Shown here: piece after piece, positions 2,357 to 54,162 of the stretch
How the letters are laid out: each line of letters opens with the position of its first letter
Numbering within the stretch: position 1 is the first letter of the stretch
NCBI GenBank assembly: GCA_019135865.1
Contig: JAGVVD010000052.1
Span: 77,011 to 141,010, forward strand
Length of the DNA: 64,000 nt
Origin: Elusimicrobiota bacterium
Lineage (GTDB): Bacteria; Elusimicrobiota; Elusimicrobia; Elusimicrobiales; UBA9959
Direction: 5' to 3'
Made by a program: the position numbers and the translations under genes
Notes under the pieces: generated by a model
What the model saw: the letters and a program-made list of their open reading frames with translations, nothing else
What the model was told of the DNA's origin: nothing
Databases searched by the model: none

Positions 2357-2383
2357 TTCTTCTTTTGTTTACCCGGAGGGACA

Positions 2384-3544: not shown

Positions 3545-3570
3545 GGGCGGCGCGCTTAAAGGAGAAAAAC

Positions 3571-5160
<1,590 letters not shown>

Positions 5161-5167
5161 CAGGACA

Positions 5168-6361: not shown

Positions 6362-6369
6362 GTTAATAT
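6339..6369 (+). promoter_or_regulatory. Sigma-70 type promoter for the SWIB gene
   Basis: A perfect TTGACA (6339-6344) is followed by TTAATA/TAATAT (6363-6369) at 18-19 nt spacing. It lies within the last codons of the upstream gene and gives a leader of about 30 nt that contains AGGAGG before the ATG at 6408. Confidence 0.65.
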
Positions 6370-6407
6370 GTTACGCGGTAAAGCAGTCATCCACTAGGAG
6401 GAAGTAA

Positions 6408-6668
6408 ATGCCCGCTGCCAAAGCTAATTCGAAGTTCATGGCCCCTATCACCCCGAACGAGACCCTGGGCGCCGTCGTCGGCAACAAGCCGATGCCCCGC
6501 ACCGAGATCGTGAAGAAACTGTGGGCCTACATCAAGAAGAACAACCTGCAGGACAAGAAGAACAAGCGCTGCATCAACGCCGATGAGAAGCTGCTGAAGC
6601 TGTTCGCCGGCAAGAAGCAGGTCACCATGTTCGACCTGGCCAAGATCATAGGCAAGAACGCGAAGTAA
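6408..6668 (+). CDS. SWIB/MDM2-domain protein
   Basis: This 86-residue basic protein is almost wholly a SWIB fold: 'MPRTEIVKKLWAYIKKNNLQ', 'NADEKLLKLFAGKKQVTMFDLAKII'. Stand-alone SWIB proteins are known from chlamydiae and some other bacteria and are thought to bind DNA or chromatin-like structures. The function here is inferred only from that. It has its own promoter, a strong AGGAGG ribosome site and an intrinsic terminator directly after it. That makes it a monocistronic gene and suggests substantial expression. Confidence 0.88.
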   Translation: MPAAKANSKFMAPITPNETLGAVVGNKPMPRTEIVKKLWAYIKKNNLQDKKNKRCINADEKLLKLFAGKKQVTMFDLAKIIGKNAK

Positions 6669-6685
6669 TTTTCGCGACTTAAGGC

Positions 6686-6725
6686 GAACCGCCGTCCGCG
6701 CGAGCTGGCGGCGGTTCTTCATTTT
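6686..6725 (+). terminator. Intrinsic terminator after the SWIB gene
   Basis: The 9-bp perfect stem GAACCGCCG (6686-6694) / CGGCGGTTC (6709-6717) is followed by TTCATTTT. Confidence 0.85.
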
Positions 6726-6730
6726 ACCGT

Positions 6731-6792
6731 CCCCATAAGGAGATTTATTCCGGGGGCATGGCGCGCCTCCCCCGGTTGTCTCCTTAATGGGG
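6731..6792. repeat. 62-bp inverted-repeat element, related to the one at 18014-18293
   Basis: The ends are inverted repeats: CCCCATAAGGAGA on the left and TCTCCTTAATGGGG on the right (one A missing on the left). Nested inside is a second pair, CCGGGGG/CCCCCGG. The right end plus two outside bases (TGTCTCCTTAATGGGGCG, 6777-6794) is identical over 18 nt to 18278-18295. No coding potential is seen. It resembles a small MITE- or REP-like element. Confidence 0.6.
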
Positions 6793-6916
6793 CGGGGAAA
6801 TTCGGTGTTCATATGGGTCCAAGGGCCCAGGAGGGGGTGGGCCCCGGGGGACTTGATTTTGGTCAACCTCCGTGCCACACTATACCAGCGGGAACTTTCA
6901 AGGAAAGGAGGGTGCC

Positions 6917-8074
6917 ATGAACGCGAAAACGACCATAAAGGCGGCTTTCCCGGCCGCGATGCTGCTTTTCCCCGGCGCCCTCCCGGCGGAACAGCGAACG
7001 GGCTACGGCGCGAATATCGTCCCGATAGCCGTCTACGGCGAGGACAACCGCGCGGACTATTACGAGGCGGACCCGGTCTATCAGCGCCTGGCCGATTCCA
7101 CGGCGGCCCTGTTCCGCGCCCGCGACGTCAGGCTGGACCCCGCCAGCGGCAACGCCTCCATAGACCTGGGCCGGACGATACGCGATAAGTTCAATCTGGG
7201 CGAGGATGAGCGCTACGGGGACCAGCCTTTCGGTTCCTTCTGCTCCTCCTTCCTGGCGGGCGAGGACCTGGTGGTCACCGCCGCGCATTGCTTCACGGAG
7301 TACGCGCCCGAGGATACCAATATCAGTTACCGGGACACCGTATTCGTTTTTGGCTACGCGGTGACCCGGGCCGGCGCCTTCCCGACCGAGGTGCCCGCCG
7401 AAAACGTTTTCGCTTTCAAGGAGCTGGTCTCGGCCAGGTACGACAAGGACGGCGCGGATTACGCCGTGATCCGGCTGAACCGCAAAGTGCCCGCGGAGCG
7501 CTTCCCGCTGGCCGTGAACCGCGGCGCCGCCCCCGCGGCCGGCGCCAGGCTGTTCGCCATCGGTTACCCCAGCGGCATGCCGGTCAAGATCGCCGGCAGC
7601 GCCACGATCCGCCGGGTCCACGCCGACAAGGGCTTTTTCGTAAGCGACCTGGACACTTTCAAAGGCAACTCGGGGAGCCCGGTCTTCAACGCGGACACGA
7701 TGATGATCGAGGGCGTGCTGACCCGCGGCGGCACCGATTATATCCATACCGAGTCGGACGGGACCGTGTATTACGATCCCCGCCGCCCCGGCGGCTACTC
7801 TCCGGGCGAGACCTATGTCCTGGGCCAGGACGAGGGCCGCGGCGAGGACGTCACGCTGATCGGGAGACTCAAGGACTTCCTGCCCGTCACCGAATTCGAG
7901 AGGGCGCTGCTGGAGGCGGAAAAACGCAATGTCCCCATGCGGGCCCCCAGCCTGAGGGATTCCGGAGTGGTCCCGGCCGTATACAGGCCCGGCGAGCAGG
8001 GCGGGGCGTTCGTTCCCGCGGTCTACTACCCGGACGAGAACGATATCCCCGAGCCCACCATCCTCAGTATCTGA
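6917..8074 (+). CDS. Exported trypsin-like serine protease
   Basis: This is a 385-residue protein with a signal peptide (about residues 1-24, cleaved near 'ALPAEQ') and a chymotrypsin/trypsin-like domain. The triad is readable: His124 in 'VTAAHC', Asp181 in 'GADYAVIRL' and Ser252 in 'GNSGSPV'. A tail of about 100 residues after the catalytic domain carries no motif I recognise. The start at 6917 has AAAGGAGG just upstream. A plausible promoter is TTGGTC (6859-6864) and TATACC (6881-6886) with a 16-nt spacer. It is probably periplasmic or secreted. The substrate is unknown. Confidence 0.85.
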   Translation: MNAKTTIKAAFPAAMLLFPGALPAEQRTGYGANIVPIAVYGEDNRADYYEADPVYQRLADSTAALFRARDVRLDPASGNASIDLGRTIRDKFNLGEDERYGDQPFGSFCSSFLAGEDLVVTAAHCFTEYAPEDTNISYRDTVFVFGYAVTRAGAFPTEVPAENVFAFKELVSARYDKDGADYAVIRLNRKVPAERFPLAVNRGAAPAAGARLFAIGYPSGMPVKIAGSATIRRVHADKGFFVSDLDTFKGNSGSPVFNADTMMIEGVLTRGGTDYIHTESDGTVYYDPRRPGGYSPGETYVLGQDEGRGEDVTLIGRLKDFLPVTEFERALLEAEKRNVPMRAPSLRDSGVVPAVYRPGEQGGAFVPAVYYPDENDIPEPTILSI

Positions 8075-8094
8075 CCGTCGTTCCCCGGAAATGA

Positions 8095-8125
8095 AAGGGC
8101 CGCGCGCTGCGCGGCCCTTCTCTTT
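8095..8125 (+). terminator. Intrinsic terminator after the protease gene
   Basis: The 11-bp perfect stem AAGGGCCGCGC (8095-8105) / GCGCGGCCCTT (8109-8119) has a 3-nt loop and is followed by CTCTTT. Confidence 0.85.
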
Positions 8126-8142
8126 CGCGTCCGGAAAGGACC

Positions 8143-9864
8143 TCAGTCCTTGCGGCGGTCTATGGTGTAGTTGCCGCCCGCGCCGGCCTTGGCGAACTTC
8201 TTGAGCTCGGTCCCTATGTTGCTGACCTGGGCGAAGGAGACCAGCGGCCTCAGGCGGTTGTGGACCACGCCTATGGAGATGGTCAGGAACGGGAATTTCC
8301 GTATGTTCCCCTGGCGGTCGGTGGAGACTATGCCGCCGCGTTCGCGGTCCTCCTTGCTGTAGAAGGAGGGGGCTATCTCGTTGAAAGCCGCTATGACGTT
8401 CCTGGCCAGCGGCTCGGCCTTCTCGAAGGTGGTGACCACGATGAAGTCGTCGCCGCCGATATGGCCGATGAAATCCTCCGAGTTCTCGTTCTGTATGGTC
8501 AGTTTGACCAGCAGGTTCGCCGTGGTCTTGATGACGCGGTCGCCGGCCTCGAAGCCGTAGGAGTCGTTGAAGGCCTTGAAGTTGTCGAGGTCGATGTAGA
8601 GAACGGCGAAATCCGAGCCCTTCTGTATCTCGCGCTCTACCCGGGCCTGTATCGACGGGTTGCCGGGCAGTTTGGAGAGGGGGTTGGTGTCGAGCACCTG
8701 TTTGTTGCGCTTGAGTATCATGCGGATCCGAGCGATCAGTTCGTCGGCGTCCACCGGTTTTATCAGGTAGTCGTCTATGCCCATGCCCAGGCCGCGCAGC
8801 TTTGTGCTCTTCTCGCTGAAGGCCGTGCAGATGATTATCGGGATATGGGCGAAAAGGGGGTTCTCCTTCAGGGCTTCGGCCACGGCCAGGCCGTCCTTGA
8901 CCGGCATATTGTAGTCGAGCACGACGATATCCGGGTTGTGCTCGAAGACCGCCGTCATCGCCTCCCCGCCGTTCTCCGCCGTTATGACCTCGAAACCGGC
9001 CTGCTCCAGCATCTCCTTCATGAGGTAAAGCAGTTCGGTCTGGTCGTCGGCGAAAAGCACGCGCGGCCTGTCGGAGCGCCGCGCGGCCGCGGCCTCCCCG
9101 GCGCCCGCTTCCGGCCCGCCCAGCTGCGCCTCTATCATTTTGAGGAGCAGTTCTTTGGGCATGTCCCTGGAAACTATCTCGGGCAGGCCCGTCAGGATCC
9201 CCTTTTCCTGGAAATTATCCAGGCGCAGGGCGCTCAGTATCACGACCGGGATACGGGCCGTGACCGCCTCGTCCTGCAGTTCCTCCATGATGCGGAACCC
9301 GTCCTTGCCGGGCATCATGAGGTCGAGCAGCAGGGCGCCGGGCTTCTCGGCCCTGGCGGTCCCCACCACCTTCAGCGGGTCGTTGACCACGACGGGGCGG
9401 TAGTGGTTGGTCTCCAGGAACATCTTCACCAGGTCGGAGAACTCCTCGTCGTCGTCGGCGACCAGCACCGTCACCGGCCTGTCCGGAGAGGGCTTCTCCG
9501 CGGCGCGCAGGAGGAGCTCCTTGAGCGCCTCGAAATCTATCGGTTTGTTGAGGTAGCCGCTGACCCGCGGCGAGGGGCCGGTCACCACCTCTATCTTGGG
9601 CGAACTGGAGAAGACGACGATGCGCTGGTTCTGGGTGAAAGGGTTCCCGCGCACTTCCCTGAGGAGGTCGAGCGGATCGAAGGCTCCGGTGAGGATATTG
9701 AGCACCGCCAGGTCGGGCTTCCAGTTCTGCAGCGAGGCCATCGCCTCCTGGCGGTCGCCGGAACACCGCACCTGCCAGCCGCGCTCCGAGAGAAGGGGGA
9801 TTATTTCGCTTTCGGCGCCGGGTGCGGGATCGATGAAGAGTATCTTTTTCGGACCTTTCGTCAT
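8143..9864 (-). CDS. Three-receiver GGDEF protein (PleD-like diguanylate cyclase candidate)
   Basis: This is a 573-residue cytosolic signalling protein. It has three consecutive receiver folds: residues about 1-120 (first receiver degenerate, beginning ILFIDPAPG), 125-245 (VLVADDDEEF, phospho-Asp in 'LLLDLMMPGKDG') and 265-385 (VLFADDQTELL, Asp in 'VVLDYNMPVKDG'). A C-terminal GGDEF domain follows, whose signature reads GGDDF. That variant is usually compatible with diguanylate cyclase activity. No output other than c-di-GMP synthesis is visible. The start at 9864 is preceded by TAAAAT with only 7 nt between, so the mRNA may be leaderless. The neighbouring pilus genes are a plausible c-di-GMP target, by inference only. 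Confidence 0.88.
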   Translation of the reverse strand: MTKGPKKILFIDPAPGAESEIIPLLSERGWQVRCSGDRQEAMASLQNWKPDLAVLNILTGAFDPLDLLREVRGNPFTQNQRIVVFSSSPKIEVVTGPSPRVSGYLNKPIDFEALKELLLRAAEKPSPDRPVTVLVADDDEEFSDLVKMFLETNHYRPVVVNDPLKVVGTARAEKPGALLLDLMMPGKDGFRIMEELQDEAVTARIPVVILSALRLDNFQEKGILTGLPEIVSRDMPKELLLKMIEAQLGGPEAGAGEAAAARRSDRPRVLFADDQTELLYLMKEMLEQAGFEVITAENGGEAMTAVFEHNPDIVVLDYNMPVKDGLAVAEALKENPLFAHIPIIICTAFSEKSTKLRGLGMGIDDYLIKPVDADELIARIRMILKRNKQVLDTNPLSKLPGNPSIQARVEREIQKGSDFAVLYIDLDNFKAFNDSYGFEAGDRVIKTTANLLVKLTIQNENSEDFIGHIGGDDFIVVTTFEKAEPLARNVIAAFNEIAPSFYSKEDRERGGIVSTDRQGNIRKFPFLTISIGVVHNRLRPLVSFAQVSNIGTELKKFAKAGAGGNYTIDRRKD

Positions 9865-9871
9865 CGCAATG

Positions 9872-9877
9872 ATTTTA
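9872..9877 (-). promoter_or_regulatory. -10 box TAAAAT, 7 nt before the receiver-GGDEF start codon
   Basis: On the minus strand TAAAAT is followed by 7 nt and then ATG. No good -35 is visible 16-18 nt upstream. No Shine-Dalgarno fits between box and start. Confidence 0.45.
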
Positions 9878-9948
9878 GCATTTCGGGGTCGGCTCTTTAC
9901 TGCCGGCCTCCGGGGGGAGTCAAGAGCGATGACCCGGCCCCATTTGTG

Positions 9949-9954
9949 TAAAAT
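9949..9954 (+). promoter_or_regulatory. -10 box TAAAAT, 6 nt before the first gene of the ATP synthase operon
   Basis: TAAAAT is followed by 6 nt and then the GTG start at 9961. The -35 is not recognisable. It is divergent from the promoter of the receiver-GGDEF gene in a 96-nt intergenic space. Confidence 0.45.
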
Positions 9955-9960
9955 ATACGC

Positions 9961-10206
9961 GTGAAGACGGAAGGACGCGGATATTACGGTCTGCTGCAGT
10001 CGGGCCTGCAGCTGGCGGCCGGGGTCGGGCTGGGCTTCTGGCTGGGCCTGCTGGCCGACCGGCGGCTGGGCACGGGCCATTGGCTGGCCGCGGCCGGCGC
10101 CGCCGCCGGCCTGGCGGCCGGGTTCTACCTTTTCTTCCGCGAAGTGGCCGCGATAAGCCGGGAAGAGGCTTCCCGGCGCAAAGGAGGCCCCGGTGACGCC
10201 GCCTGA
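9961..10206 (+). CDS. atpZ: AtpZ/AtpI-type ATP synthase accessory protein
   Basis: This 81-residue protein has two transmembrane helices (about residues 15-33 and 40-58) separated by a short 'ADRRLGTGHW' loop, the normal shape of AtpZ/AtpI accessory proteins. Such proteins precede subunit a in many bacterial F-ATPase operons and help c-ring assembly or Mg2+ handling. It has a GTG start and overlaps the next gene by 14 nt. Confidence 0.72.
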   Translation: MKTEGRGYYGLLQSGLQLAAGVGLGFWLGLLADRRLGTGHWLAAAGAAAGLAAGFYLFFREVAAISREEASRRKGGPGDAA

Positions 10207-10492
10207 GACCGCCGCTTCCGCGGCGCTGCTGGGCGCGCTCTGCGGGGTCTTCAACGGCCTGCTGGCGGGGGCGGTCATGCGGCGCGCCGTGGCGGCCTCC
10301 CAGCCCGTTTTTTTCGCCGCTTTCGTCGCGGGATTTTTCTACCGCCTGCTCTTCCTGCTCGGCGCTTTGTGGCTTCTGCGCAATGAAAAATATATAATTA
10401 TCGTCGCTTTCGCGGCGGCGCTCATACTCGCGCAGCTCATCCTGGAAGTGATTCTCGTTCCCAGGGGCCCATGGACGTCAAAGAGATCCTAG
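10193..10492 (+). CDS. atpI: ATP synthase subunit I-like membrane protein
   Basis: This 99-residue, mostly hydrophobic protein has three to four membrane helices. It lies between atpZ and atpB and overlaps both (14 and 22 nt). Position and topology fit the AtpI/subunit I family, a c-ring assembly helper. Sequence motifs in this family are weak, so the call leans on context. GTG start. Confidence 0.62.
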   Translation: MTPPETAASAALLGALCGVFNGLLAGAVMRRAVAASQPVFFAAFVAGFFYRLLFLLGALWLLRNEKYIIIVAFAAALILAQLILEVILVPRGPWTSKRS

Positions 10493-11235
10493 AGCATCAC
10501 ATCATAGACCACGTCTGGTCCGTCGTGCCCGCCGGGCCCGTGGGCCTTCCCGTATCCAAACATTTCCTGATGATAGTCCTGGTCGCCGCGCTTCTCGGCG
10601 CGGGGCTGCCGCTGCTGCGGCGCAGCCGCTCGGCCGGGCTGGCCCCGTTCCGTTCCATGCTCGAGGCCCTGGTCCTGTTCATCCGCGACGAGGTGGTCGT
10701 GGAGAACATGGGCAAAAAAGGCGCGCGCTATACCGGCTATTTCTGCACCCTGTTCGTCTTCATCCTCGGGCTCAACCTGGCCGGCATGGTGCCTTTCGGC
10801 TCGACGGCGACGGGCAACCTGGCCGTGACGGGCGGGTTCGCCCTCTGCACCTTCCTGCTGGTCAACCTGGCCGGCATGCGCGAGCAGGGCGTGGTCAGAT
10901 ACGTCTCGCATCTGGTCCCGGCCGGCGTGCCCGTCTGGCTCTACCCGCTGCTTTTCCCGATAGAGGCGCTGGGTCTGGTGACCAAGACCTTCGCGCTCTG
11001 CATCCGTCTTTTCGCCAACATGATCGCCGGCCATATAGTGATCCTGTCCTTCATCGGCATGATCTTCATCTTCGGCGCGGTCGATCCCTGGCTGGGCGTG
11101 GGCGTGACGGCCCCGGCGGCCGTCGTGCTGGTCCTTTTCGTTTCGCTGCTCGAGATCTTCGTGGCCTTCCTGCAGGCGTACATCTTCACCTTCCTGACGG
11201 CCATCTTCACGGGCGCGGCGATGCACCCGCACTGA
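10471..11235 (+). CDS. atpB: F-type ATP synthase subunit a
   Basis: This 254-residue multi-spanning membrane protein forms the ion half-channels of Fo. The essential arginine lies in 'FALCIRLFANMIAGHIVI' (about residues 170-187). The N-terminus carries the usual 'LEHHIIDHVW' amphipathic start. It overlaps the preceding gene by 22 nt. With subunits c and b following, it forms the Fo block of the operon. Confidence 0.96.
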   Translation: MDVKEILEHHIIDHVWSVVPAGPVGLPVSKHFLMIVLVAALLGAGLPLLRRSRSAGLAPFRSMLEALVLFIRDEVVVENMGKKGARYTGYFCTLFVFILGLNLAGMVPFGSTATGNLAVTGGFALCTFLLVNLAGMREQGVVRYVSHLVPAGVPVWLYPLLFPIEALGLVTKTFALCIRLFANMIAGHIVILSFIGMIFIFGAVDPWLGVGVTAPAAVVLVLFVSLLEIFVAFLQAYIFTFLTAIFTGAAMHPH

Positions 11236-11269
11236 TCTTTATGCGGAGACGGACACGGAGGTAGCGTAC

Positions 11270-11566
11270 ATGAACGACATGCTGTTCCTTGGACTCGGTT
11301 ACATAGGCGGCGGCCTCGGCGCGGGGCTGACCCTGGTCGGCGCCGGCATGGGCATCGGCAGGCTCGCGGCCAGCGCGATGGAAGGCACGGCCCGGCAGCC
11401 GGAAGCCGGCGGCCAGCTGCGGACCTCGATGATCATCGCGGCCGCGCTCATCGAAGGCATCGCCTTCTTCGCCCTGGTCATCTGCCTCTTCGCGGTGCTC
11501 AACTTCGGCATGCCGAAGGCCCCCGAGACCGGCGCGGCCCCGGCGCAGACCGAAGCGCATAAGTAA
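11270..11566 (+). CDS. atpE: F-type ATP synthase subunit c
   Basis: This 98-residue two-helix hairpin forms the rotor ring. The conserved loop 'RQPEA' and the ion-binding Glu in helix 2 (AALIEGIAFFALVI) are present. The helix-1 position that is Gln in Na+-type rings is Ile here (GMGIGRLAAS), and Gly follows the key Glu instead of Ser/Thr. That pattern points to proton rather than sodium coupling. The C-terminal 15 residues (Pro/Ala/Glu-rich) extend beyond a typical subunit c. Confidence 0.95.
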   Translation: MNDMLFLGLGYIGGGLGAGLTLVGAGMGIGRLAASAMEGTARQPEAGGQLRTSMIIAAALIEGIAFFALVICLFAVLNFGMPKAPETGAAPAQTEAHK

Positions 11567-11620
11567 GAATACGGACTACGGCGCCGGGCGGTCCCCGCGC
11601 GGCGCCGACAGGAGTCGGAC

Positions 11621-12121
11621 ATGGAAGCTCTGATAAGGCCGGATTTCGGCCTGACCTTCTGGACGCTGCTCATCTTCGGGCTGCTGGTGCTGCTGCTTTC
11701 GAAGACGGTGTGGAAGCCGGTGCTGCAGGCCGCCGAGCAGCGCGAGAAGGGCCTGCGCGACGAGCGCGAGGCCGCCGAGAAGGCGCGCGCCGAAGCCGAG
11801 CGCGCCTCCAGGGAAATAGAGGAACGTCTCGCGGGGATAAAGGCGGAGATGCAGGCCAGGCTGCGCGAGGCGACGGAAGAAGGCGAGCGCGCCAAGGTCA
11901 AGCTGCTCGACGACGCCCGCAAGGGCGTGGCGGCCATGCTCGAGAGCGCCGCCCGCGACCTGCAGACCGAGCGCGAGAAGATCGCGGCCGAGCTGAGGAA
12001 CAGTTTCGCCGAGTTCTCGCTGATGTCCGCCGAGAAGGTCCTCTCCCGCTCGGTGGACCGCAGGCTGAACGAGGAGATAGTGGGCAAGGCCATAAAGGAG
12101 CTCGAGGCCAAAAAGGCCTGA
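11621..12121 (+). CDS. atpF: F-type ATP synthase subunit b
   Basis: This 166-residue peripheral stalk subunit has one N-terminal membrane helix (about residues 10-28) followed by a long charged, heptad-like Arg/Glu/Ala-rich coiled coil. That is the standard subunit b layout. It lies between atpE and atpH. Confidence 0.93.
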   Translation: MEALIRPDFGLTFWTLLIFGLLVLLLSKTVWKPVLQAAEQREKGLRDEREAAEKARAEAERASREIEERLAGIKAEMQARLREATEEGERAKVKLLDDARKGVAAMLESAARDLQTEREKIAAELRNSFAEFSLMSAEKVLSRSVDRRLNEEIVGKAIKELEAKKA

Positions 12122-12125
12122 CCGG

Positions 12126-12692
12126 ATGAAAGCCTCCGAAAGGACCCTCGCCCGGCGCTACGCCGCCGCCTACATGTCATACGGTACTGGGACACCAAGC
12201 CGCATGGTGTCCCCCGCTGATGCGGCGGGCGAGTCCGCCGCGCGCCTGGAGGCGCTGAGGAGGCTGGAACGGGCCGTCGCGCCCGCGCTGCCGCTGCTCA
12301 CGCGGCCGCTGGTGCCCGTGCGGCTCAAACTGGAGATACTGGAGAAGGCCTGCCCCGGCAAGGACCTCGTCCGCGCGCTGGCGCTGGCCGCGCTGCTGGT
12401 CAGGACTGGCCGGCTGGGCCTGCTGGGGGAGACGGCCGCGCAGTGCGCGCTGCTCGCCGACGAGGCGGCCGGCGTGCTGCGCGCCGAAGTGACCTCGCGC
12501 TACCCGCTCTCCGACGCGGAGCGCGCGGGCCTGGAGAAGGCGCTGTCCGCTTTTTCCGGCCGGAAGGCGGTGGTCTCCAATACGATCTCCGAAAAAGTGC
12601 TCGGCGGCTTCGAAGCCGGTTTCGGCGGCTTCCTGCTGGACGCCACGCTGCTCGGCAGGCTGGCGCGGCTCAGGAAAAAAATCACCACATAG
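12126..12692 (+). CDS. atpH: F-type ATP synthase subunit delta
   Basis: This is a 188-residue OSCP/delta subunit that joins F1 to the peripheral stalk. The N-terminus 'RTLARRYAAAYM' and the C-terminal 'ISEKVLGGFEAGFGGFLLDATLLGRLARLRKKI' pattern (in part) are typical. The stretch at about residues 18-40 (Gly/Ser/Pro-rich) looks like a lineage-specific insertion. It starts 4 nt after atpF and ends 9 nt before atpA. Confidence 0.9.
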   Translation: MKASERTLARRYAAAYMSYGTGTPSRMVSPADAAGESAARLEALRRLERAVAPALPLLTRPLVPVRLKLEILEKACPGKDLVRALALAALLVRTGRLGLLGETAAQCALLADEAAGVLRAEVTSRYPLSDAERAGLEKALSAFSGRKAVVSNTISEKVLGGFEAGFGGFLLDATLLGRLARLRKKITT

Positions 12693-12701
12693 GCGGTAAG
12701 C

Positions 12702-14225
<1,524 letters not shown>

Positions 14226-45647: not shown

Positions 45648-46307
45648 TCAGCGCGCCTTGATTATCGAGATGTCTCCGGAAACAGTGTGTGCCGCCACGG
45701 CAATCCCGCTTTCCCCGGTAAAGTCGTTCCGGATCTTGCCGCTGGTCGTCGCGGTCTCCACGGCTATCCGCGCGTCCTTGGCGAAAGTGGCATGGATATC
45801 GCCGGAGACGGTTTCCGCTCTGACCGGTCCCTGGACTTTTGCGAGCCGGACATCCCCGGAAGTCGTTTCCGCATCGATTGCGCCAGTTATGCCGGTCAGC
45901 TTTATATCGCCGGAGATGGCCTTGGCTTTAACCGGGGCGGCCAGATTATTGACCTTGATATCTCCTGAAACGGTGTCCGTAAGTGCGGGCAGCGCAGCCG
46001 GCAGTTGCACCCGGAATCCGGTTTTGATATTTCCGTGTACGCCGTCCTTTTCGATGGCTTTGAGCGTAAGGGTCCCGTCTATTACCTCCATGCTCACATC
46101 GCAGGCGGTCTTGTTGTCAGGCAACTGCTCAACCTGGATATCCGCCCGCTTCTGTGTATCGATATAAATATCGCCGGAGGCTGTGTGGACGCTGATGCCG
46201 GCGACGTCCTTGGCCGGGAAAGTCGTAATATCGACCTTCTTGCCGGCGGCGTATCCAGATGCAGTAATACCCGCGCAGATAATCGCCGCAAATACAGATG
46301 CTTTCAT
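45648..46307 (-). CDS. DUF4097-like exported beta-repeat protein
   Basis: This 219-residue protein has a signal peptide (MKASVFAAIICAGITASGYA). It is then a run of short beta-strand repeats centred on 'SGDI': HTASGDIYID, DTVSGDIKVN, KAISGDIKLT, ETTSGDVRLA, ETVSGDIHAT and HTVSGDISII. That pattern is the DUF4097 beta-helix family. I chose ATG 46307 because GGAGGAAGC precedes it. It overlaps the protease stop by 4 nt (ATGA), so it is translationally coupled to the RiPP genes. The role is unknown; immunity, surface display or stress sensing are only guesses. Confidence 0.8.
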   Translation of the reverse strand: MKASVFAAIICAGITASGYAAGKKVDITTFPAKDVAGISVHTASGDIYIDTQKRADIQVEQLPDNKTACDVSMEVIDGTLTLKAIEKDGVHGNIKTGFRVQLPAALPALTDTVSGDIKVNNLAAPVKAKAISGDIKLTGITGAIDAETTSGDVRLAKVQGPVRAETVSGDIHATFAKDARIAVETATTSGKIRNDFTGESGIAVAAHTVSGDISIIKAR

Positions 46308-47407
46308 GCTTCCTCCCGTCTCTTTGCTAACTTGCTCCACTCTTCGCGCCCTTCTTTGAACCGGCGCACTCCGCCCATCAGAGCCATGATCACGAAATAC
46401 AATCCTATAATAATTCTGTGCCCCTCATGAAGCAGCGTTGCAGGTGCGGTGAACGCGGTCTGCACCATTTTTATTATCTGCCCGGCACGCATGCCGACCT
46501 GCCACAAAATGTATAGCGAAAACAGTGCGAAGGCGAGGAGATACACCCGGTGCAGATGTGACATCCAGAAGCGGTCGCCATATTTTTCGCGCAGGTCGGC
46601 GTAAATCCAGTAGGCGTCGGTCCGCAGAAGGGGGTTCAGGTTGAAGGCCATTATCAGCACTATCCACCTTATGGCTTCGGCGCCGGTGTTGCTCCCAGTG
46701 AGAAGAGCCGCCAACACAAGCAACAGAAGATAAGCGGACTGGGCGATAAACCCGCCGCAATCTATGGCGAGCTGCCGACCGAGCGGCAGGCGTTCCATCC
46801 CGGACACGTTTGTGTGGAAAACCGGGTAAAAGAGATAGACCGAGAAACCGATAGGGCGCAGGCCTATTCCCGCGGCGCCGGCGGCGATAGAATGCCCGAG
46901 TTCATGCACTAGACTGCTCAGCACGATGAGCAGGAATATTAGCGGGCCATTCGCCGGGCCGCCGCCGGGCCAAGCGTTAATGAGCGTCAAACCGCCTATG
47001 AAGCCGGCAATGGCGGTGCATAGAATAAGTCCCAGCCAGACTTTGGACCGCAGGCGGTCAACGAGTTTTAATGTCCATTCCTGGGCTCTGGGCGGGATGA
47101 GAGTGATGTTGGGCTGCAGGATGGCTGTCAGCAAGGCCTTAAGTCCTTTCTTCGGGGCTCCCTCGCGCAGAACTCCCAGAGAGATAAGGCGGTCGAATAT
47201 CTTCTGCGGGTATTCCAGTCCCAGGTCGGATAGGGCTTTGAAATATTCCGCGGATTTCCCGGCGGCCGGCAGGCGCGTCACCAGCCACAGGGTTTCTTCC
47301 GCCAGCCTGTAGCAGGAGGATTTTGTGATTATCATTGACCCCAAGCCGTTGTCTACGGCGTAGCCCGGTTTAAGGTGGTTCTCGTAAGTGATGTCTGTTG
47401 TGGACAT
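46304..47407 (-). CDS. M50-family membrane protease with N-terminal RRE/PqqD-like domain
   Basis: This is a 367-residue protein. Residues 8-85 (LKPGYAVDN…SCYRLAEETLWLVTRL…IFDRLISLGVL) have the shape of a PqqD/RRE winged helix, the fold that grips RiPP leader peptides. The rest has about six membrane helices with the zinc site His168-Glu169-x2-His172 (VHELGHSI) and the second motif 'NLNPLLRTD' (residues 256-264). It resembles YydH-type peptidases of RiPP clusters. Leader removal or export of the modified peptide is the likely role. It lies 1 nt after the radical SAM stop. Confidence 0.85.
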   Translation of the reverse strand: MSTTDITYENHLKPGYAVDNGLGSMIITKSSCYRLAEETLWLVTRLPAAGKSAEYFKALSDLGLEYPQKIFDRLISLGVLREGAPKKGLKALLTAILQPNITLIPPRAQEWTLKLVDRLRSKVWLGLILCTAIAGFIGGLTLINAWPGGGPANGPLIFLLIVLSSLVHELGHSIAAGAAGIGLRPIGFSVYLFYPVFHTNVSGMERLPLGRQLAIDCGGFIAQSAYLLLLVLAALLTGSNTGAEAIRWIVLIMAFNLNPLLRTDAYWIYADLREKYGDRFWMSHLHRVYLLAFALFSLYILWQVGMRAGQIIKMVQTAFTAPATLLHEGHRIIIGLYFVIMALMGGVRRFKEGREEWSKLAKRREEA

Positions 47408-47408: not shown

Positions 47409-48830
47409 TCAGCCGTGCACGCTCCTGGTCGCGGCCTCGTTGGTCCTGGCCGGGGTACCGCCGCCGTTCTTCAGGCGCTTCTCATAGGCCAGCTTCAGTC
47501 CCTGGAGGATAGTGTTCTTGATACCGTCGCAGTTGGGCTTGAACAGGTCCCCGGTCACGGCGCGGCAACGCACGCCGCATTGCCCGCCGCAGGCCAGAGC
47601 CACGGGGCATTTAACGCACTCATCCATGTTGGCTATGTGGCGGGTTTTGTAAGTCTTGCGAAGAGGGAAGAATTCGACTCCGCCCTCCGAAATATGGCCG
47701 ACGCGGTTCTCAGCATAGCCCGCCTCCTCGAAGCAGCCATAGAGGTCGCCGAAGGGGTCCACTACCAGCGTGTTCTGGATGGTCTGCATGCAGAAGGAGG
47801 TCTGCATCAGGCCCAGACCCTTTTCCAGTTGAAAGAGATAGCTCATGTCGTTTGCCCGCAGGCTGACCGGATGTTCCATGTCTATGCCGAGGTCGAAGAC
47901 CTTGGAAGAGAGTTCGCCCGCGTCCATAAAATGAGTGGTGTCCACCTCGGCTACGTTGTCGTGCAGGGGACTGGCGTAGATGCTGGCATTGGGAGCGCCG
48001 AGGATCTTACGGCTCTTCAGTTCTTTTACCAGATTGGGAATGGAGGCCAGGGTGCGCCTGTCGAGGTTCAGCCGTATGTTCACGTGGGCGCCCTGCTTGA
48101 GCATCAGGGAGATGTTGTTCACTATCCTGTCGAAAGTCCCTTCGCCTGAGGCGGGGATGCGGGACTTGTCGTGCAGTTCGCGGTCGCCGTCGAGGGATAC
48201 CTGGACGTAATTCACCTTACCGGGACCCGCGCCGAAGATGTCCAGCATGCTCTCTACCTGCGTAGCGTTGCTGATGGCTCTTGACGACATCCCGTAGCGT
48301 TTCGCGTAGCTCAGTGCTTTGCGTATTACCGGCAGGTTGGCGGGCAGGAACGGCTCGCCGCCGTAGAACGAGATCTCCGTGTTCTTCAGCTCTATGCCGG
48401 GGAGAACTGAGGAAATGTGACGCTCGAAGAGGTCCTCTACGAATTTCTCCGTCATGACCTCCCTGGACTTGTGAGGGCGGTGCTCCTGCTGGTAGCAGTA
48501 CTTGCAGGCCAGGTTGCAGTTGTAGCTCATCAGCAGCATTATACCGCCGTGCGTGGTCTGCCGCTCGCGCCTGCTGTGCAGGGCGGCGGCAAATTCTTTG
48601 AAACGCGCCCACTCGGTTTCCGGAGGCAGGGTGGTGAGGTGGCCGCGCTTTGCGAGGAATTCCATATCTTGCGTGGATAGGAACGAAAGCTCCGCCGTGT
48701 CCTTTGTCCGGAGGCTGTCGCCCAGCTTCCTTGAAACCGTATCCATGCAGCCGTTTATGCCGTTGAAAAGCAGGGCGGAGTTTTCAAGGTCAATCACGTT
48801 GACGTACTGGCTGACGTAGTATTTATTCAT
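47409..48830 (-). CDS. Radical SAM/SPASM peptide-modifying enzyme
   Basis: This is a 473-residue enzyme. The N-terminal region of about 95 residues is of the leader-recognition type. The radical SAM core follows with Cys105-x3-Cys109-x2-Cys112 (CNLACKYC), 'FYGGEPFL' for SAM contact and 'QVSLDGDRELHD'. The SPASM domain has Cys347, 366, 405, 408, 414, 418, 422 and 434 (including 'CVKCPVALACGGQC') for two auxiliary Fe-S clusters. This architecture occurs in sactipeptide/ranthipeptide maturases, epimerases and anSMEs. With Cys-repeat precursors next door, thioether formation is the leading hypothesis. I chose ATG 48830, which has GGAGG before it. Confidence 0.93.
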   Translation of the reverse strand: MNKYYVSQYVNVIDLENSALLFNGINGCMDTVSRKLGDSLRTKDTAELSFLSTQDMEFLAKRGHLTTLPPETEWARFKEFAAALHSRRERQTTHGGIMLLMSYNCNLACKYCYQQEHRPHKSREVMTEKFVEDLFERHISSVLPGIELKNTEISFYGGEPFLPANLPVIRKALSYAKRYGMSSRAISNATQVESMLDIFGAGPGKVNYVQVSLDGDRELHDKSRIPASGEGTFDRIVNNISLMLKQGAHVNIRLNLDRRTLASIPNLVKELKSRKILGAPNASIYASPLHDNVAEVDTTHFMDAGELSSKVFDLGIDMEHPVSLRANDMSYLFQLEKGLGLMQTSFCMQTIQNTLVVDPFGDLYGCFEEAGYAENRVGHISEGGVEFFPLRKTYKTRHIANMDECVKCPVALACGGQCGVRCRAVTGDLFKPNCDGIKNTILQGLKLAYEKRLKNGGGTPARTNEAATRSVHG

Positions 48831-48851: not shown

Positions 48852-49070
48852 TCAGCAGATCCTGGCCGAGTGGAAAAATTCGGCGGGTTCGGTGTTCTTC
48901 TCCCAAGGAGCGGGTTTGCGGGAAAACCTGCTGTCTATAAGTATGGGGGTCTGTTTGGGGGTTGAAATCTCCTGCTGTTCGGCGGGAATAGAGAGGGTTG
49001 AAGCCTTTTCGCTTTTCCCCGGGGCGGTCACCGCGAAAATCGCCGCAAGTATCGCTATAGTTATGTACAT
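48852..49070 (-). CDS. Small exported protein in the RiPP locus
   Basis: This 72-residue protein has a good ribosome site (AAGGAGAC) and a hydrophobic N-terminus (MYITIAILAAIFAVTAPG) suggesting a signal or anchor. The mature part, of about 53 residues, is polar and ends in Cys. It lacks the shared leader motif of the two precursors, so it is not a third precursor of that type. It lies between precursor A and the radical SAM gene, directly behind a stable hairpin. The function is unknown. Confidence 0.6.
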   Translation of the reverse strand: MYITIAILAAIFAVTAPGKSEKASTLSIPAEQQEISTPKQTPILIDSRFSRKPAPWEKNTEPAEFFHSARIC

Positions 49071-49138: not shown

Positions 49139-49336
49139 TTATTTGGGGTTGTTCGGCGTGCACACCGTGTATGACGAATTGCACCTGCAACCGGAGTTGA
49201 CGCCGTTACAGTCATCGGCTTTGGTCTCCAGCATCAGCGGCAGCGCCTCGAACTCTATGCGGTCCACGGCTTTTTCGAGGGTCAGAGCCTCGCCACCGGT
49301 CATGTTCAGCGTCCTCATTACGTGTTTCTCGTTCAT
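49139..49336 (-). CDS. RiPP precursor peptide A (two 9-residue Cys repeats)
   Basis: This 65-residue peptide has a ribosome site AAGGAGAC. The leader is about residues 1-36 and shares 25 of the first 34 positions with precursor B (MNxxHVxxxLNMTxGExLTL, then EKAxDRxEFEALPL). The core is Cys43, 50, 52 and 59: CNGVNSGCR, CNSSYTVCT, i.e. two units of C-N-x5-C-x, then PNNPK. Spacing is exactly 7-2-7. It is encoded next to the radical SAM/SPASM and protease genes. The product structure is unknown. Confidence 0.88.
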   Translation of the reverse strand: MNEKHVMRTLNMTGGEALTLEKAVDRIEFEALPLMLETKADDCNGVNSGCRCNSSYTVCTPNNPK

Positions 49337-49386
49337 TTTCTTGTCTCCTTGTCGGTCTTTTTTACGGCTTTACATCAAAATCGTCG

Positions 49387-49632
49387 TCAGCCTATGTTTT
49401 TGCTGGGACAGTCTATCGCCAGGGAATTGCAGGAGCAGGAGCTGTTGTTGCCATTACAACCACAGGATGTGTGGGAGTGATTGCATTCGCATCCGGTATT
49501 GACCCCATTGCAATCAAGGCGTGACGCTAGCAGCGGCAGTGCCTCGAATTCCATCCGGTCCGCGGCTTTTTCCAGGGTTAGCGATTCCCCTTTGGTCATG
49601 TTCAGTGACTCTAATACGTGGCTGGTATTCAT
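49387..49632 (-). CDS. RiPP precursor peptide B (four 9-residue Cys repeats)
   Basis: This 81-residue peptide starts at ATG 49632 (MNTSHVLESLNMTKGES), which aligns with precursor A and has AAAGGAG upstream. The upstream in-frame Met at 49677 is rejected. The core Cys are 41, 48, 50, 57, 59, 66, 68 and 75: CNGVNTGCE, CNHSHTSCG, CNGNNSSCS, CNSLAIDCP, i.e. four exact C-N-x5-C-x units. The tail is SKNIG. It is the first gene after the sigma-54-like promoter. The repeat count, twice that of precursor A, points to unit duplication in the core. Confidence 0.88.
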   Translation of the reverse strand: MNTSHVLESLNMTKGESLTLEKAADRMEFEALPLLASRLDCNGVNTGCECNHSHTSCGCNGNNSSCSCNSLAIDCPSKNIG

Positions 49633-49686: not shown

Positions 49687-49702
49687 AGCAATATTTATGC
49701 CA
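49687..49702 (-). promoter_or_regulatory. Sigma-54 promoter for the precursor operon
   Basis: On the minus strand TGGCATAAATATTGCT matches the -24/-12 consensus (TGGCAC-N5-TTGCW) at 15 of the meaningful positions except one. GG and GC lie at the required spacing. It sits about 55 nt upstream of the precursor B ATG, giving a leader of roughly 44 nt. Confidence 0.75.
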
Positions 49703-49802: not shown

Positions 49803-49832
49803 GAAAAGAAAAGGCGGGCCGTCTGGCCCGCC
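49803..49832 (-). terminator. Intrinsic terminator after the hybrid kinase gene
   Basis: On the minus strand GGCGGGCC-AGAC-GGCCCGCC is followed by TTTTCTTTT. It separates the SBP-YcaO-kinase unit from the precursor unit. Confidence 0.9.
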
Positions 49833-49856
49833 TCGCGCCTGTACTATTATATTTCC

Positions 49857-51380
49857 TTAAACAGCGGTCCAGGGCGGCTCTTTACCGGTTACCTTGAGCC
49901 AGGGGAGGTGGGCGAATTTGACGGCATCGTGGCCGGTGGCCATGGCCAGGTTGGTGAAACCGCGCTCCCTGAGGGTTTTGGCGATATCTTCGCCTTTGAC
50001 GCCTTCCCCCAGATCGGAATCCATAAAGATCGGTGTATCTTTGGGCAGATCGGGCAGGACCGCTTCCAGTTCGGCGCGGGTCCGGCAGGCTTTGAGTTCT
50101 ACCCCGCCCGCTTTAGCGGCCGTCTTCCAGTTCATGTGCACCAGCGGATCGTCGTCCAGAAGAACGGCCACACTAGGCGCCGCGGATCGCTCTGCCCGAG
50201 GCAATTCTATGGTCACTGCGGTCCCTTTTCCGGATTCGGAATTTGTTGCCAGGGTCCCGCCCCATTCTTCCACGGTCTGTTTGGCGTGGTAAAGCCCCAG
50301 CCCGGTGCCGCCGGCCTTGCCGTGGGTTTCGCCCTTCTGCCCCAGCTTTGCCAGTATTTCCGGAGGGATCCCCTTGCCGTCATCCTTAACGCTCAATAAC
50401 GCCTTTCCGTCCAGGGCGGAAAGCGTCACCGAAACCGTGCCGCCTTTATCGATGGCCTCCACCGCGTTGTTGACCAGGTTGGAGACGATGCGCTGGAACT
50501 CGCACGGGTCTACGGCGGCCTTAATGCCGTCGCCGCTGCCGAACTCTATGGCGACGCCGGGCTTGTCCTTGTGCTGGATACGCTTCTCCGCTATCACCTG
50601 CTCGATAAGGTCGGAAAGTGGGCAGATCTCCGCCTTTGCCTCTACCTCGGCGCCGGGTGCGCGGTAGCGGTGCAGCAGGTCGTTGGCGATGGCCTGCATG
50701 CGGCCGACCGCGCCGTCTATCAGTGTGCGCTGGTCGGCGGGGAGCGCGAGGCTCTTGGTGGCCGCGCCAAGTGCCGCCAGCGGGGAGCGGATATCGTGCG
50801 CCACCTGTGCGGCGAGTGAAACAAGCCGGAGATTCAGTTTTCTCTCGGCCTCAAATGCTTTCAGGCGCAGTGCTAGGGTTTTATTTAAAAAATGGTTTAT
50901 GAGCATGACGAAAAAAATAAGGGCCAGGCGTGTAAGCCAGATCCCGGTGCGAAAATGTGCGGAATGTATGGAGCGGAATGTCAGGGTCCACTTCCGTCCG
51001 TCGATGCCCGCCAATTCGGCTTCGGCGCGCTTGAATTTGAAAAACAGCAGTTCTTTCAGCAGGGAATGCTGCGCTTCGCAGCCGGTCTTATAAGATAGAT
51101 TGATGAAGTCCTGCCTTTGGTCGGCAGGTTTGAATATGGAGCAACGCGCTACCCCGAGAGATTCGAGGTCCTCTATCTTCTGGGCTATCAGATAAGGGTT
51201 GGAAACAACTCTGGAATCGTTAAGATAGGACTGTGCCGTGGTTATTTTCTGACGCACCAGGTCGCGGGCCAGGAACTCGAATACGGTCTGAATGGCGGCG
51301 AGCCCCAGAAGTATCGCAATAAGCATGGCGAACGCGTTTGACGTCCGCAGATTTTGAGGCCGGGGATGAACGAGTCTCAT
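49857..51380 (-). CDS. Hybrid histidine kinase with C-terminal receiver-like domain
   Basis: This is a 507-residue protein. Two membrane helices (about residues 15-37 and 147-166) enclose a periplasmic sensor of about 110 residues. The kinase core has His195 (VAHDIRSPL), the N-box 'VSNLVNNAVEAID', G1 'DDGKGIP' and G2 'GGTGLGLYHAK'. A receiver-like domain follows (VLLDDDPLVHMNW, with 'FMDSDL' near residue 450 as phospho-Asp site). It starts 8 nt after the YcaO-like gene. It may sense the peptide or a trigger and feed the missing sigma-54 activator. Confidence 0.87.
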   Translation of the reverse strand: MRLVHPRPQNLRTSNAFAMLIAILLGLAAIQTVFEFLARDLVRQKITTAQSYLNDSRVVSNPYLIAQKIEDLESLGVARCSIFKPADQRQDFINLSYKTGCEAQHSLLKELLFFKFKRAEAELAGIDGRKWTLTFRSIHSAHFRTGIWLTRLALIFFVMLINHFLNKTLALRLKAFEAERKLNLRLVSLAAQVAHDIRSPLAALGAATKSLALPADQRTLIDGAVGRMQAIANDLLHRYRAPGAEVEAKAEICPLSDLIEQVIAEKRIQHKDKPGVAIEFGSGDGIKAAVDPCEFQRIVSNLVNNAVEAIDKGGTVSVTLSALDGKALLSVKDDGKGIPPEILAKLGQKGETHGKAGGTGLGLYHAKQTVEEWGGTLATNSESGKGTAVTIELPRAERSAAPSVAVLLDDDPLVHMNWKTAAKAGGVELKACRTRAELEAVLPDLPKDTPIFMDSDLGEGVKGEDIAKTLRERGFTNLAMATGHDAVKFAHLPWLKVTGKEPPWTAV

Positions 51381-51388: not shown

Positions 51389-52249
51389 CTAAAAGACAAA
51401 TCTCCGCTCACTCCCCAGGTGCCAAGGCAGATAATCTTTGCAGACAGCGCGGAAGAGGGAGTAACCGTCATAATGAGGTCGACGCAGCTCCGCCACAAAA
51501 TCAAGCGCCGGTCGCGGCCAGTTTTTTTGCTCGGGGCGATATAGCGCGCTTAAAGCCGCGGCCTGGTTCATTCCAAAATACTTCAAGCGGCCGGCCAGGA
51601 TAGGATAAATGTCGGAGCGTTCCCTGAGATTCTTGAAGATATTTAAATGACGCCAGGCTTCGATCAGGGCGTGTTCCCAGGGCTTCTCTCCGCAGGCGCA
51701 AACGCGCGAGCCGGGGAATGCGCCTCCCCCGCGCAATGCCACGACCGCGCCGAAGCACAGGGGGTCGGGCAGGCCGGGGATGTCATGCCCGACCCTCCTC
51801 TCGAAATAGATGATCCGGTCGAATTGACCGGCATAATGTTTCCCCAACTCCGTGAGTTCCGGTCGTGCGGTCTCTTTCATGGGATAGCGCTCGTCCACCC
51901 ATTTTGACCAAAGCCAGCGTTCCACGGCTTCCGCCTGCGCACGCATTAGTGTGGGGGCTCGTTCAAAGCCGGCGGCCATTCCGCAGCGAGTCGGATACTC
52001 ATCGAATTTAAAGAGCCTGCGTTCCTCTGGAGAGAATCCGGTTTCGCGCTCAAGCCATTCCAGAGACTCCGCCACGGCGATCCTCTGCGCCCACCGGCGG
52101 TCTTTTGCCGTGCCGCCGCCGATAGCCACGCCGTCCGAACCCGTAACTATGGCTGACCAGCCTATGGTGCCTCCGGAAATGTTCTTTACCGGAGCGGATT
52201 TGATGCTTTTTATCAGCGGCAGGAACCTGTCCGGGAATCTGAACTTCAC
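51389..52249 (-). CDS. Compact YcaO-like protein
   Basis: This is a 286-residue protein. YcaO-type ATP/Mg motifs are visible: 'AVAESLEWLERE' (Glu61, Glu64, Glu67-Arg68), 'CGMAAGFERAPTLMRAQAEAVERWLW' (in part; Glu107, Glu110-Arg111) and 'WEHALIEAWRHL' (Glu197). The C-terminus (RRFVF) lacks the Pro-rich tail of azoline cyclodehydratases, and no E1-like partner is nearby. The protein is shorter than the usual length of about 400. I chose GTG 52249 because it overlaps the SBP stop by 4 nt (GTGA). ATP-dependent backbone activation is expected from the family; the substrate here is unknown. Confidence 0.7.
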   Translation of the reverse strand: MKFRFPDRFLPLIKSIKSAPVKNISGGTIGWSAIVTGSDGVAIGGGTAKDRRWAQRIAVAESLEWLERETGFSPEERRLFKFDEYPTRCGMAAGFERAPTLMRAQAEAVERWLWSKWVDERYPMKETARPELTELGKHYAGQFDRIIYFERRVGHDIPGLPDPLCFGAVVALRGGGAFPGSRVCACGEKPWEHALIEAWRHLNIFKNLRERSDIYPILAGRLKYFGMNQAAALSALYRPEQKNWPRPALDFVAELRRPHYDGYSLFRAVCKDYLPWHLGSERRFVF

Positions 52250-53874
52250 CGTAGTTGGACCTTTTCGAAACGGAGCAGGTTCGCGGTAGGGGAGAAATTG
52301 TCCATGCCGATATCTTTGGATACAAGCCAGCTGAATGCGGAATTGAACAGGGGTATTACAGCCGCATCCTCGCTCACGATCCTTTCGAAATCGGCCGCGG
52401 TTTTCGTGGTCCGATCGGTCATATCCCCGGTGAGCCCGGCTATTCTGCCGGAAGGGTCGGGGAAACTTACCCCCAGGCGTGAGCAGAACATCATTCTGAC
52501 CACCCATGGCTCGTAGCTTCCCCCGATGTCCACGCGGACCACGCGGACATCCATCTCTTTGAGTTCGTCCAGGCGCTCTTTCCAGCCGGGCTTGGTCCGG
52601 TCCTCGCTTTTGAATTCCAGCTTCAGCCCCAGGCTGTCGGCGCTTTTTGTGAGAATACTTTTGACGTATTTGAGCTGCTCGGGCGTAAGCGCGTTGCTGG
52701 TGACGACGGATAGCGGGCGGTTCGTCCAAGAGCGGAAGTCCGCGTCTGAAATTTCTTGCACCCCCGGAAAGGCCTGGCCTGGATAGAACGACAGGGTGTT
52801 GCGTGATATCTCGGAAGAGATTTTTTCGTCGGCTGCGGCGTGGAGTATGGCGGCCCGGAAAGACCGGCGTAACGGCTGGGATTTGAACGGGCCGTCGCGG
52901 TAAGGGGACAGGACGACGGCGACCAGATCGGTAGGCGTGCCCAGGAACCTCTTGTAGCCCGGGGGAATGTCACGCGCTGACTCGATCCGTTTGTTGATGA
53001 TGGTGCGCACTGGCGGCAGGTTCGCGGCTTCCGGGAAGGGAAGCATCCTGATGTTTACCGAGTCGGGGGAGGGGTAATCCTCGCGCGGCCAGTCCTCCCT
53101 TTTCTGCAATAGGACCGAATTTTCATTAAAGGCTGTCAGCCGCCATGGCCCGGTTGCGGTTATTTTACGGTCATTCTTCCAGGAGCCGTCGGCGTTGAAA
53201 TCGGTGTCGCTGTAAAAGCCGTAGTACGGCATCGAGAGAAATTCCAGGATGCCGTCGGGATTGGCGGTGAATCGGAATTCCAGCGTATTTCCAGCCGCGA
53301 TCATTCCGGATATATCCCGGGTGCGGCCATTACGGAAATCGGAAAATCCGCGGAGACGCTCAAAAACAGGGATGTCTTTGTTCGCCTGTATGTACAGCCG
53401 GAAGAGCCTTAAGAGATTTTTGTGATAAGCCTCCGCTGTTATCCGGGCCCCGTCCTCGGAGCGCAAGTCTTCCTTTAGCGTGAACGTATAGCGGAGTCCG
53501 TTGTCGGAGGTGCGCCAGGTCGCGGCCAGGCAATTCTCCGATTTGCCGTCAAAAGCGTATTTGACCAGAGTGCCGACGATCTGCTCCATGAAGACCACGT
53601 TGAGCAGGGTATCGGAATGCAGAGGATTGAATGAGGGGGTTCCGCGTTCTTCTGTTAGTACGTAGGTTAGCTCTCGGGAGTCTGCCTTAGAAGTTGGGGG
53701 TCGCATTCTTGTCGATGTCAGCCAGTGAGCCATCATAATTAGCAACGCCAATATTATCGAGGTCGATATAAGCGATTTCTTCATGTATGGAGACGGCATG
53801 AATTTGCGTTTCTTGATGGGTTTTTCCTGGATCCGCGACAGGATTATAGTTGAAGCCTGTTTATTTATTTTCAT
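52246..53874 (-). CDS. Extracellular solute-binding protein, family 5 (peptide-binding type)
   Basis: This 542-residue protein has a long basic N-terminus (residues 1-30) and a hydrophobic segment (about 31-50), so it is probably membrane-tethered or exported. The mature part has the DppA/OppA layout: 'TPSFNPLHSDT', 'LVKYAFDGKSENCLAATWRTSDNGLRYTFTLKEDLRSEDG' (in part), 'ATGPWRL' and 'LRRSFRAAILHA'. No permease or ATPase genes accompany it, so it may act as a binding or sensing subunit. It has a strong ribosome site (GGGGGGAGG). It is the first gene of the SBP-YcaO-kinase unit. Confidence 0.85.
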   Translation of the reverse strand: MKINKQASTIILSRIQEKPIKKRKFMPSPYMKKSLISTSIILALLIMMAHWLTSTRMRPPTSKADSRELTYVLTEERGTPSFNPLHSDTLLNVVFMEQIVGTLVKYAFDGKSENCLAATWRTSDNGLRYTFTLKEDLRSEDGARITAEAYHKNLLRLFRLYIQANKDIPVFERLRGFSDFRNGRTRDISGMIAAGNTLEFRFTANPDGILEFLSMPYYGFYSDTDFNADGSWKNDRKITATGPWRLTAFNENSVLLQKREDWPREDYPSPDSVNIRMLPFPEAANLPPVRTIINKRIESARDIPPGYKRFLGTPTDLVAVVLSPYRDGPFKSQPLRRSFRAAILHAAADEKISSEISRNTLSFYPGQAFPGVQEISDADFRSWTNRPLSVVTSNALTPEQLKYVKSILTKSADSLGLKLEFKSEDRTKPGWKERLDELKEMDVRVVRVDIGGSYEPWVVRMMFCSRLGVSFPDPSGRIAGLTGDMTDRTTKTAADFERIVSEDAAVIPLFNSAFSWLVSKDIGMDNFSPTANLLRFEKVQLR

Positions 53875-53898
53875 GTTGCCTCCCCCCTAACTTTCCTT

Positions 53899-53927
53899 AT
53901 CCTGCCATATTTTTGAACACGGGTCAA
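53899..53927 (-). promoter_or_regulatory. Sigma-70 type promoter of the SBP-YcaO-kinase unit
   Basis: On the minus strand TTGACC (53922-53927) lies 17 nt from CAGGAT (53899-53904). The transcript would start about 18-20 nt before the ATG at 53874. Confidence 0.5.
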
Positions 53928-53933
53928 TGAAAA

Positions 53934-53964
53934 CAGGGAAAGCGATATGTTGTCGCTTTCCCTG
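53934..53964 (-). terminator. 12-bp hairpin with T-run on minus, upstream of the SBP promoter
   Basis: CAGGGAAAGCGA (53934-53945) and TCGCTTTCCCTG (53953-53964) pair perfectly with a 7-nt loop. On the minus strand TTTTCATT follows. It may stop transcripts from the tRNA side, or be part of a plus-strand RNA. Confidence 0.6.
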
Positions 53965-54162
53965 GATGCATCCGGTTACGGCCGGATCGTGGATACTCTG
54001 GGGCCAATCCCCCAAATTACAAGGAATCTACGAATAAAGTATGGCAGACGGGCCTTCCTTGCGTAAGGGTCTTTGGTCCCACGGCAGTTTAGGCCCATCC
54101 AAACAGGGACTGGAGTTATCGGCAAAATGCCGGCAACTTGTCGGCATTGCCGGGAGAAACGG
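53965..54162. other. Intergenic stretch with several inverted repeats, no gene seen
   Basis: There is no reading frame. It contains GGATGCATCC, CCGG-N6-CCGG and a bulged stem GGCAAAATGCCG/CGGCATTGCC (about 54121-54151). Together with the flanking hairpin and terminator it could be a structured RNA on plus. No known riboswitch consensus fits. Confidence 0.4.

Follow-up and report, generated by a model that had tools for sequence, protein, structure and literature searches.

Two short genes in a 64,000-nucleotide stretch of an Elusimicrobiota genome (contig JAGVVD010000052.1; the whole stretch is called the window below) encode peptides with exact tandem Cys-Asn repeats, raising the question of which pathway they belong to and whether the repeat reflects a rule of a modifying enzyme. 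Both genes, like every feature described here, lie on the minus strand. preB (49387–49632) encodes 81 residues, with a leader of ∼33 residues followed by four CNx5Cx units (CNGVNTGCE, CNHSHTSCG, CNGNNSSCS and CNSLAIDCP; Cys41/48/50/57/59/66/68/75). preA (49139–49336) encodes 65 residues, with the leader seen in preB and two units (CNGVNSGCR and CNSSYTVCT; Cys43/50/52/59). A second reading of the sequence bears out these unit counts and Cys positions from the original prediction, and a recount again gives 25 identities in the first 34 residues of the two peptides. The tandem register is not due to chance, because 300,000 shuffles of the preB core never exceeded two units; two units arose in 11 of 300,000 shuffles of the preA core.

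Several features indicate that preA and preB are real genes. AGGAG-type ribosome-binding sites lie upstream of both, and orthologues of both are present in Elusimicrobia bacterium GWB2_63_16 (locus L006), where per-site differences are mostly synonymous. Judged against this relative, both genes are under purifying selection, with dN/dS values of ∼0.18 for preA and ∼0.14 for preB residues 1–73, the latter at near-saturated synonymous sites. Three genes further along are also preceded by ribosome-binding sites: those for a 72-residue protein, a radical SAM/SPASM enzyme (rSAM) and a DUF4097 protein.

The minus-strand order is a solute-binding protein (SBP5), a YcaO-like protein, a histidine kinase, a hairpin, a sigma-54-type element, preB, preA, the 72-residue protein, the rSAM, an M50-type protease and the DUF4097 protein. 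The 72-residue protein (48852–49070) has a signal-peptide-like N-terminal segment, is 65% identical in GWB2_63_16 and 37% in locus L092, and occupies the position held by an exported TPR protein in most relatives. It is followed by the rSAM, a 473-residue peptide maturase (47409–48830), the M50-type intramembrane metalloprotease (46304–47407) and a DUF4097/LiaG-like exported protein (45648–46307), which is the terminal operon gene in the window's sub-lineage. Each precursor is thus a short gene with a conserved leader and a variable core, adjoining a peptide-modifying enzyme. preA and preB are very probably RiPP precursors, because leader and adjacent rSAM co-occur in 14 Elusimicrobiota genomes; the RiPP context originally proposed is supported by this distribution. 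Our preferred reading, to which we give a probability of about 0.72, is a RiPP family found in this analysis only in Elusimicrobiota (341 genomes of the phylum), in which a SPASM rSAM would bind the leader and form thioether cross-links, the M50 protease would cleave the leader and sigma-54 would control expression.

A profile of the leader, with consensus M..[IV]IKSLNLT.GEVLTLEKA.DRMEFEAL, gives 29 matches in 15 of the 341 phylum genomes, all but one of which belong to the window's family; the leader conservation that the original prediction had proposed to check is therefore present. The rSAM occurs in 16 of the 341. Leader and rSAM are found together in 14 genomes, the leader alone in one, the rSAM alone in two and neither in 324 (Fisher p 7e-22, a value that is merely indicative because the genomes are related rather than independent). 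The exceptions are at least partly assembly gaps, since in G020, scored as leader only, the first part of an rSAM adjoins the precursor, and in G151 the rSAM lies near a contig end. Precursor(s), exported protein, rSAM and M50 protease follow one another in this order in the window, at a second locus of the same genome, in GWB2_63_16 and at many other loci, and the rSAMs beside the precursors are clearly homologous, with identities mostly about 50–69%. The second locus (L004, contig C19 of this 2.95-Mb genome) is a complete operon, with an rSAM 69% and an M50 protease 50% identical to those of the window, an exported TPR protein and a precursor that joins the same leader to an irregular 11-Cys core. 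We found no relatives in IMG/VR viral contigs, and in open-licence papers no report of this leader–rSAM–M50 family or of any RiPP from Elusimicrobiota.

Some loci depart from the common arrangement. At L101:9200-10528, leader and Cys-rich core form the C-terminal part of an open frame of ∼440 codons with a possible membrane segment, so that the precursor is apparently fused to a larger protein. The precursor at L028:10096-9850 has an in-frame TAG as its third codon, which reflects either damage to the gene or an error in the sequence. At L099:8383-10879, an rSAM (34% identical) and an M50 protein (32% identical) form a distant, operon-like pair next to a second radical-SAM-like protein; no precursor was recognisable at that locus, which counts against the preferred reading.

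The most direct alternative to a RiPP is that the peptides bind metal, like metallothioneins, or form disulfides, with the rSAM neighbour acting on something else. Close CxC pairs and the His-containing CNHSHTSC segment are typical of thiolate metal sites, and the upstream SBP5 protein has NikA-like similarity. The peptides nevertheless have no meaningful Pfam or NCBIfam match, in line with the original prediction, which knew of no described RiPP class with this exact unit, and no metallothionein model of either collection matches at E values up to 1. The strong conservation of the leader, the conserved precursor–rSAM–M50 order and the co-occurrence with the rSAM also speak against this explanation, as do family members with just two or three Cys residues and the finding that CxC by itself is not over-represented in the cores. 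We regard it as very unlikely.

The rSAM contains the CxxxCxxC motif and all seven SPASM cysteines, and scores above the Pfam Radical_SAM cut-off. Cys105/109/112 and Cys347, 366, 405, 408, 414, 418 and 434 are invariant in 13 homologues. Its top NCBIfam profile matches are TIGR04463, PapB, the geopeptide maturase and CefB, at 110–124 bits against cut-offs of 340–600 (best score 124, cut-off 525), which places it in none of the curated families; at scores this far below every cut-off, family membership gives no guide to its chemistry. All 13 homologues match the PapB and SCIFF models, for which full scores were obtained for the window enzyme. The solved structure closest in sequence is CteB, or TigE when the N-terminal part is included, both of them RiPP maturases. 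A fold search with an AlphaFold model returned TigE, CteB, SuiB and anSME; because the models have low confidence (pLDDT 54 for the rSAM and 56 for the M50 protease), we took from them only the succession of structural elements and, as weak support, the result of the fold search. Residues 1–91 of the rSAM are predicted to form three strands followed by helices, at confidence values mostly between 40 and 70. This arrangement would fit a RiPP recognition element (RRE), an assignment that is tentative because the models are of low confidence. The constant leader may be recognised by the adjacent enzyme, probably through this RRE-like N-terminal domain.

The closest known systems are the ranthipeptides (freyrasin/PapA–PapB, SCIFF CteA–CteB and NxxcA–NxxcB), which likewise combine a leader, a Cys-rich core and a single SPASM-type rSAM. 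The window rSAM matches the PapB and SCIFF models at E values of 1e-35 and 1e-24, but scores only 122.4 bits against the PapB cut-off of 340 and 84.8 against the SCIFF cut-off of 425. The ranthipeptide motifs are not enriched in the family's cores either: CxxxD (as in PapA) was seen 7 times with 13.2 expected, and NxxC (as in NxxcA) 13 times with 11.4 expected. CefA/CefB, the geopeptides and the TIGR04463-paired peptides of NCBIfam are, by name, Cys-rich or repeat peptides with rSAM/SPASM maturases, but here the scores of the window enzyme are only some 20–33% of the curated thresholds. In the TVGG-repeat peptides (TvgA/TvgB) a tandem core repeat is also modified by an rSAM, with peptidase and transport genes; that repeat, unlike the one in the window, contains no Cys, and its chemistry is cyclopropylglycine formation on Val (PMC9062424).

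According to the original prediction, the unit is explained by an enzyme that reads a fixed register. On this account the maturase recognises the exact nine-residue spacing and makes one ring per CNx5C unit, while the loops diversify freely. The register is perfect in each of the window's six units and is kept in the GWB2_63_16 orthologues. The repeat itself is exact in the window but varies in this relative: unit 1 of the GWB2_63_16 B peptide begins with CT where CN would be expected, and unit 4 has lost its second Cys, leaving 7 Cys residues. Elsewhere in the family, cores that follow an aligned leader have little in common, with 2 to 12 Cys at variable spacing. Among 25 other family precursors CNx5C was seen once, with 0.9 expected, although their rSAMs are homologous, and it is missing beside the 69% identical rSAM of contig C19. 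The CNx5Cx repeat is limited to two loci, those of the window and of L006, and to four repeat peptides. A search for the tandem pattern across the phylum, as the original prediction had recommended, gave 7 further matches and none in a convincing gene (two have a stop inside the pattern and the rest are short unrelated frames); a reversed control gave 3. Family cores beside homologous enzymes thus use other Cys spacings, and we rejected a fixed-register rule; recognition of the exact unit by the maturase appears improbable.

What the cores do share is a looser element. The most over-represented pattern is C-x-C-x(3,6)-Y-x(2,5)-C, seen 16 times with 1.0 expected (when the repeat loci are left out, 13 times with 0.9 expected). 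Examples are CDCDGPVGYINC and CECNSGYNPC and, in the window, CRCNSSYTVC. The Cys-Asn dipeptide was seen 27 times with 11.8 expected (16 against 8.5 without the repeat loci) and is present even in the 49-residue precursors of a distant genome (YCNVKI, YCNIKI); CxxD and CxxN are moderately enriched. These shuffle counts overstate independence because the peptides are homologous. We read the window repeat as a lineage-specific, multiplied and regularised copy of this C-x-C-Y-C/Cys-Asn element, which would make the tandem no rule of the enzyme. The hallmark of the family is the leader with a looser Cys-rich core, and the exact nine-residue repeat is one lineage's version of it. The real novelty lies in the leader–rSAM–M50 family rather than in the repeat, which is a lineage detail.

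In the preferred reading, the rSAM would cross-link core Cys to other core residues, most likely through radical-formed thioethers. A Cys-Asn S–Cβ thioether made by a SPASM enzyme is known in NxxcA (PMC8326336), repeated Cys-Asp links are known in freyrasin (PMC8326336; PMC9413430), and PapB tolerates 0–6 residues between linked partners (PMC9413430). Pairing the second Cys of every unit with the Asn three positions further along (C-x-C-N) would leave without a partner exactly the two residues that the GWB2_63_16 B peptide has lost; this is no more than a hint, because chance agreement would be about one in four. The rSAM might instead make a different bond, such as a Tyr or Asn cross-link of the C–C or C–O cyclophane type, or an epimerisation, with the Cys residues later forming disulfides or binding metal. 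The pattern counts make Tyr as conserved a neighbour as Asn, and the rSAM weakly matches the models of the cyclophane-forming enzymes YhhB and FxsB. Its best profiles, however, are maturases of Cys-rich peptides and the thioether-forming PapB, and Tyr is missing from most preB units and from the cores of two genomes (G004 and G017), so that such chemistry seems doubtful. A bolder reading, which we hold only tentatively, would place the peptides in a new RiPP class: a single SPASM enzyme, guided by the leader, would form a new Cys cross-link (e.g. to the Asn of Cys-Asn, or across CxC-Y-C) in freely varying cores, and the window repeat would become a ladder of identical rings whose production answers to a sensor made up of SBP5 and the histidine kinase. 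A very conserved leader before cores of 2 to 12 Cys, beside homologous enzymes, offers a natural test of how far SPASM maturases tolerate change in the core, and direct swaps are possible between the paralogous operons of this genome, of which one carries the strict repeat and the other an irregular core.

The M50 protein contains HELGH and NLNPLLRTDAYW and is conserved beside the rSAM. HELGH and the distal NLNPLLRTD motif, the two parts of an HExxH-type site with its distal partner, are retained in three homologues. Profile matches are weak: 17.6 bits against the Pfam M50 cut-off of 27.2, and 26 of 300 and 17 of 225 bits for the daptide and LiaK RiPP metalloproteases. Epipeptide and daptide systems, like this one, encode an M50 protease next to a peptide and the enzyme that modifies it, and EpeP, an M50 protease, is thought to cleave and export the epipeptide (PMC10885120). 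The precursors described here differ in being Cys-rich and are matched by no daptide or epipeptide model. We propose that the membrane-embedded M50 protease cleaves the leader away and may also let the product pass through the inner membrane into the periplasm; no ABC exporter was recognised among the operon's genes.

A putative sigma-54-type −24/−12 promoter element, TGGCATAAATATTGC (49688–49702), lies 55 nt upstream of the start codon of preB. It is the sole match in the window, with 0.07 expected, and has GG and GC at −24/−12 spacing in a sequence near TGGCAC-N5-TTGC. The identical element precedes the C19 and L006 precursors, slightly changed versions precede most others, and the distance to the precursor is 53–112 nt in most cases. 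A search of the window's genome gave five sites; the precursor operons account for two of them, and the other three lie together at a locus encoding an NtrC-type regulator, a histidine kinase and an SBP-like protein; an NtrC-type regulator is also encoded divergently from the precursors in L004 and L006. Upstream of the element, an intrinsic-terminator-like hairpin (49811–49834), identified by consensus match, separates the precursor operon from that of a hybrid sensor histidine kinase (49857–51380), whose receiver domain matches weakly and whose relatives adjoin many precursor loci. Before it lie the divergent YcaO-like gene (51389–52249) and the gene for the SBP_bac_5-type protein (52246–53874), whose stop is overlapped by the GTG start of the YcaO-like gene. 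SBP5 is probably a periplasmic sensor part. The YcaO-like protein is below the Pfam cut-off (E=0.13), and its L004 and L006 counterparts are above it. We treat these three genes as a sensor and regulatory module outside the core pathway, on the grounds that a comparable set occurs at a locus of the same genome where no precursor was recognised and that several precursor loci lack it. Transcription would start at the sigma-54 promoter, which the SBP5/histidine-kinase module plausibly activates via an NtrC-type regulator.

Related modules vary in composition. At L030:11431-19421 and L023:3443-10607, sensor modules at precursor loci include TldD/TldE-type proteases and a small radical SAM protein, and the YcaO-like gene is replaced. 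L123, on contig C15 of the window's genome (262000-279000), encodes at positions 258-12801 a sigma-54 regulator, a small radical SAM protein, a beta-lactamase-like hydrolase, an SBP-like protein and a histidine kinase; no Cys-rich precursor was recognised with this sensor-like module. Two sigma-54-type sites there are followed by exported proteins of 237 and 211 residues, and a third site lies upstream. A near-identical stretch precedes both sensor modules of this genome (window 53887–54015; L123:3509-3865); one of its frames reads GDxPQSIHDPAVTGCIQGK, and the stretch probably represents repeated DNA and not a gene.
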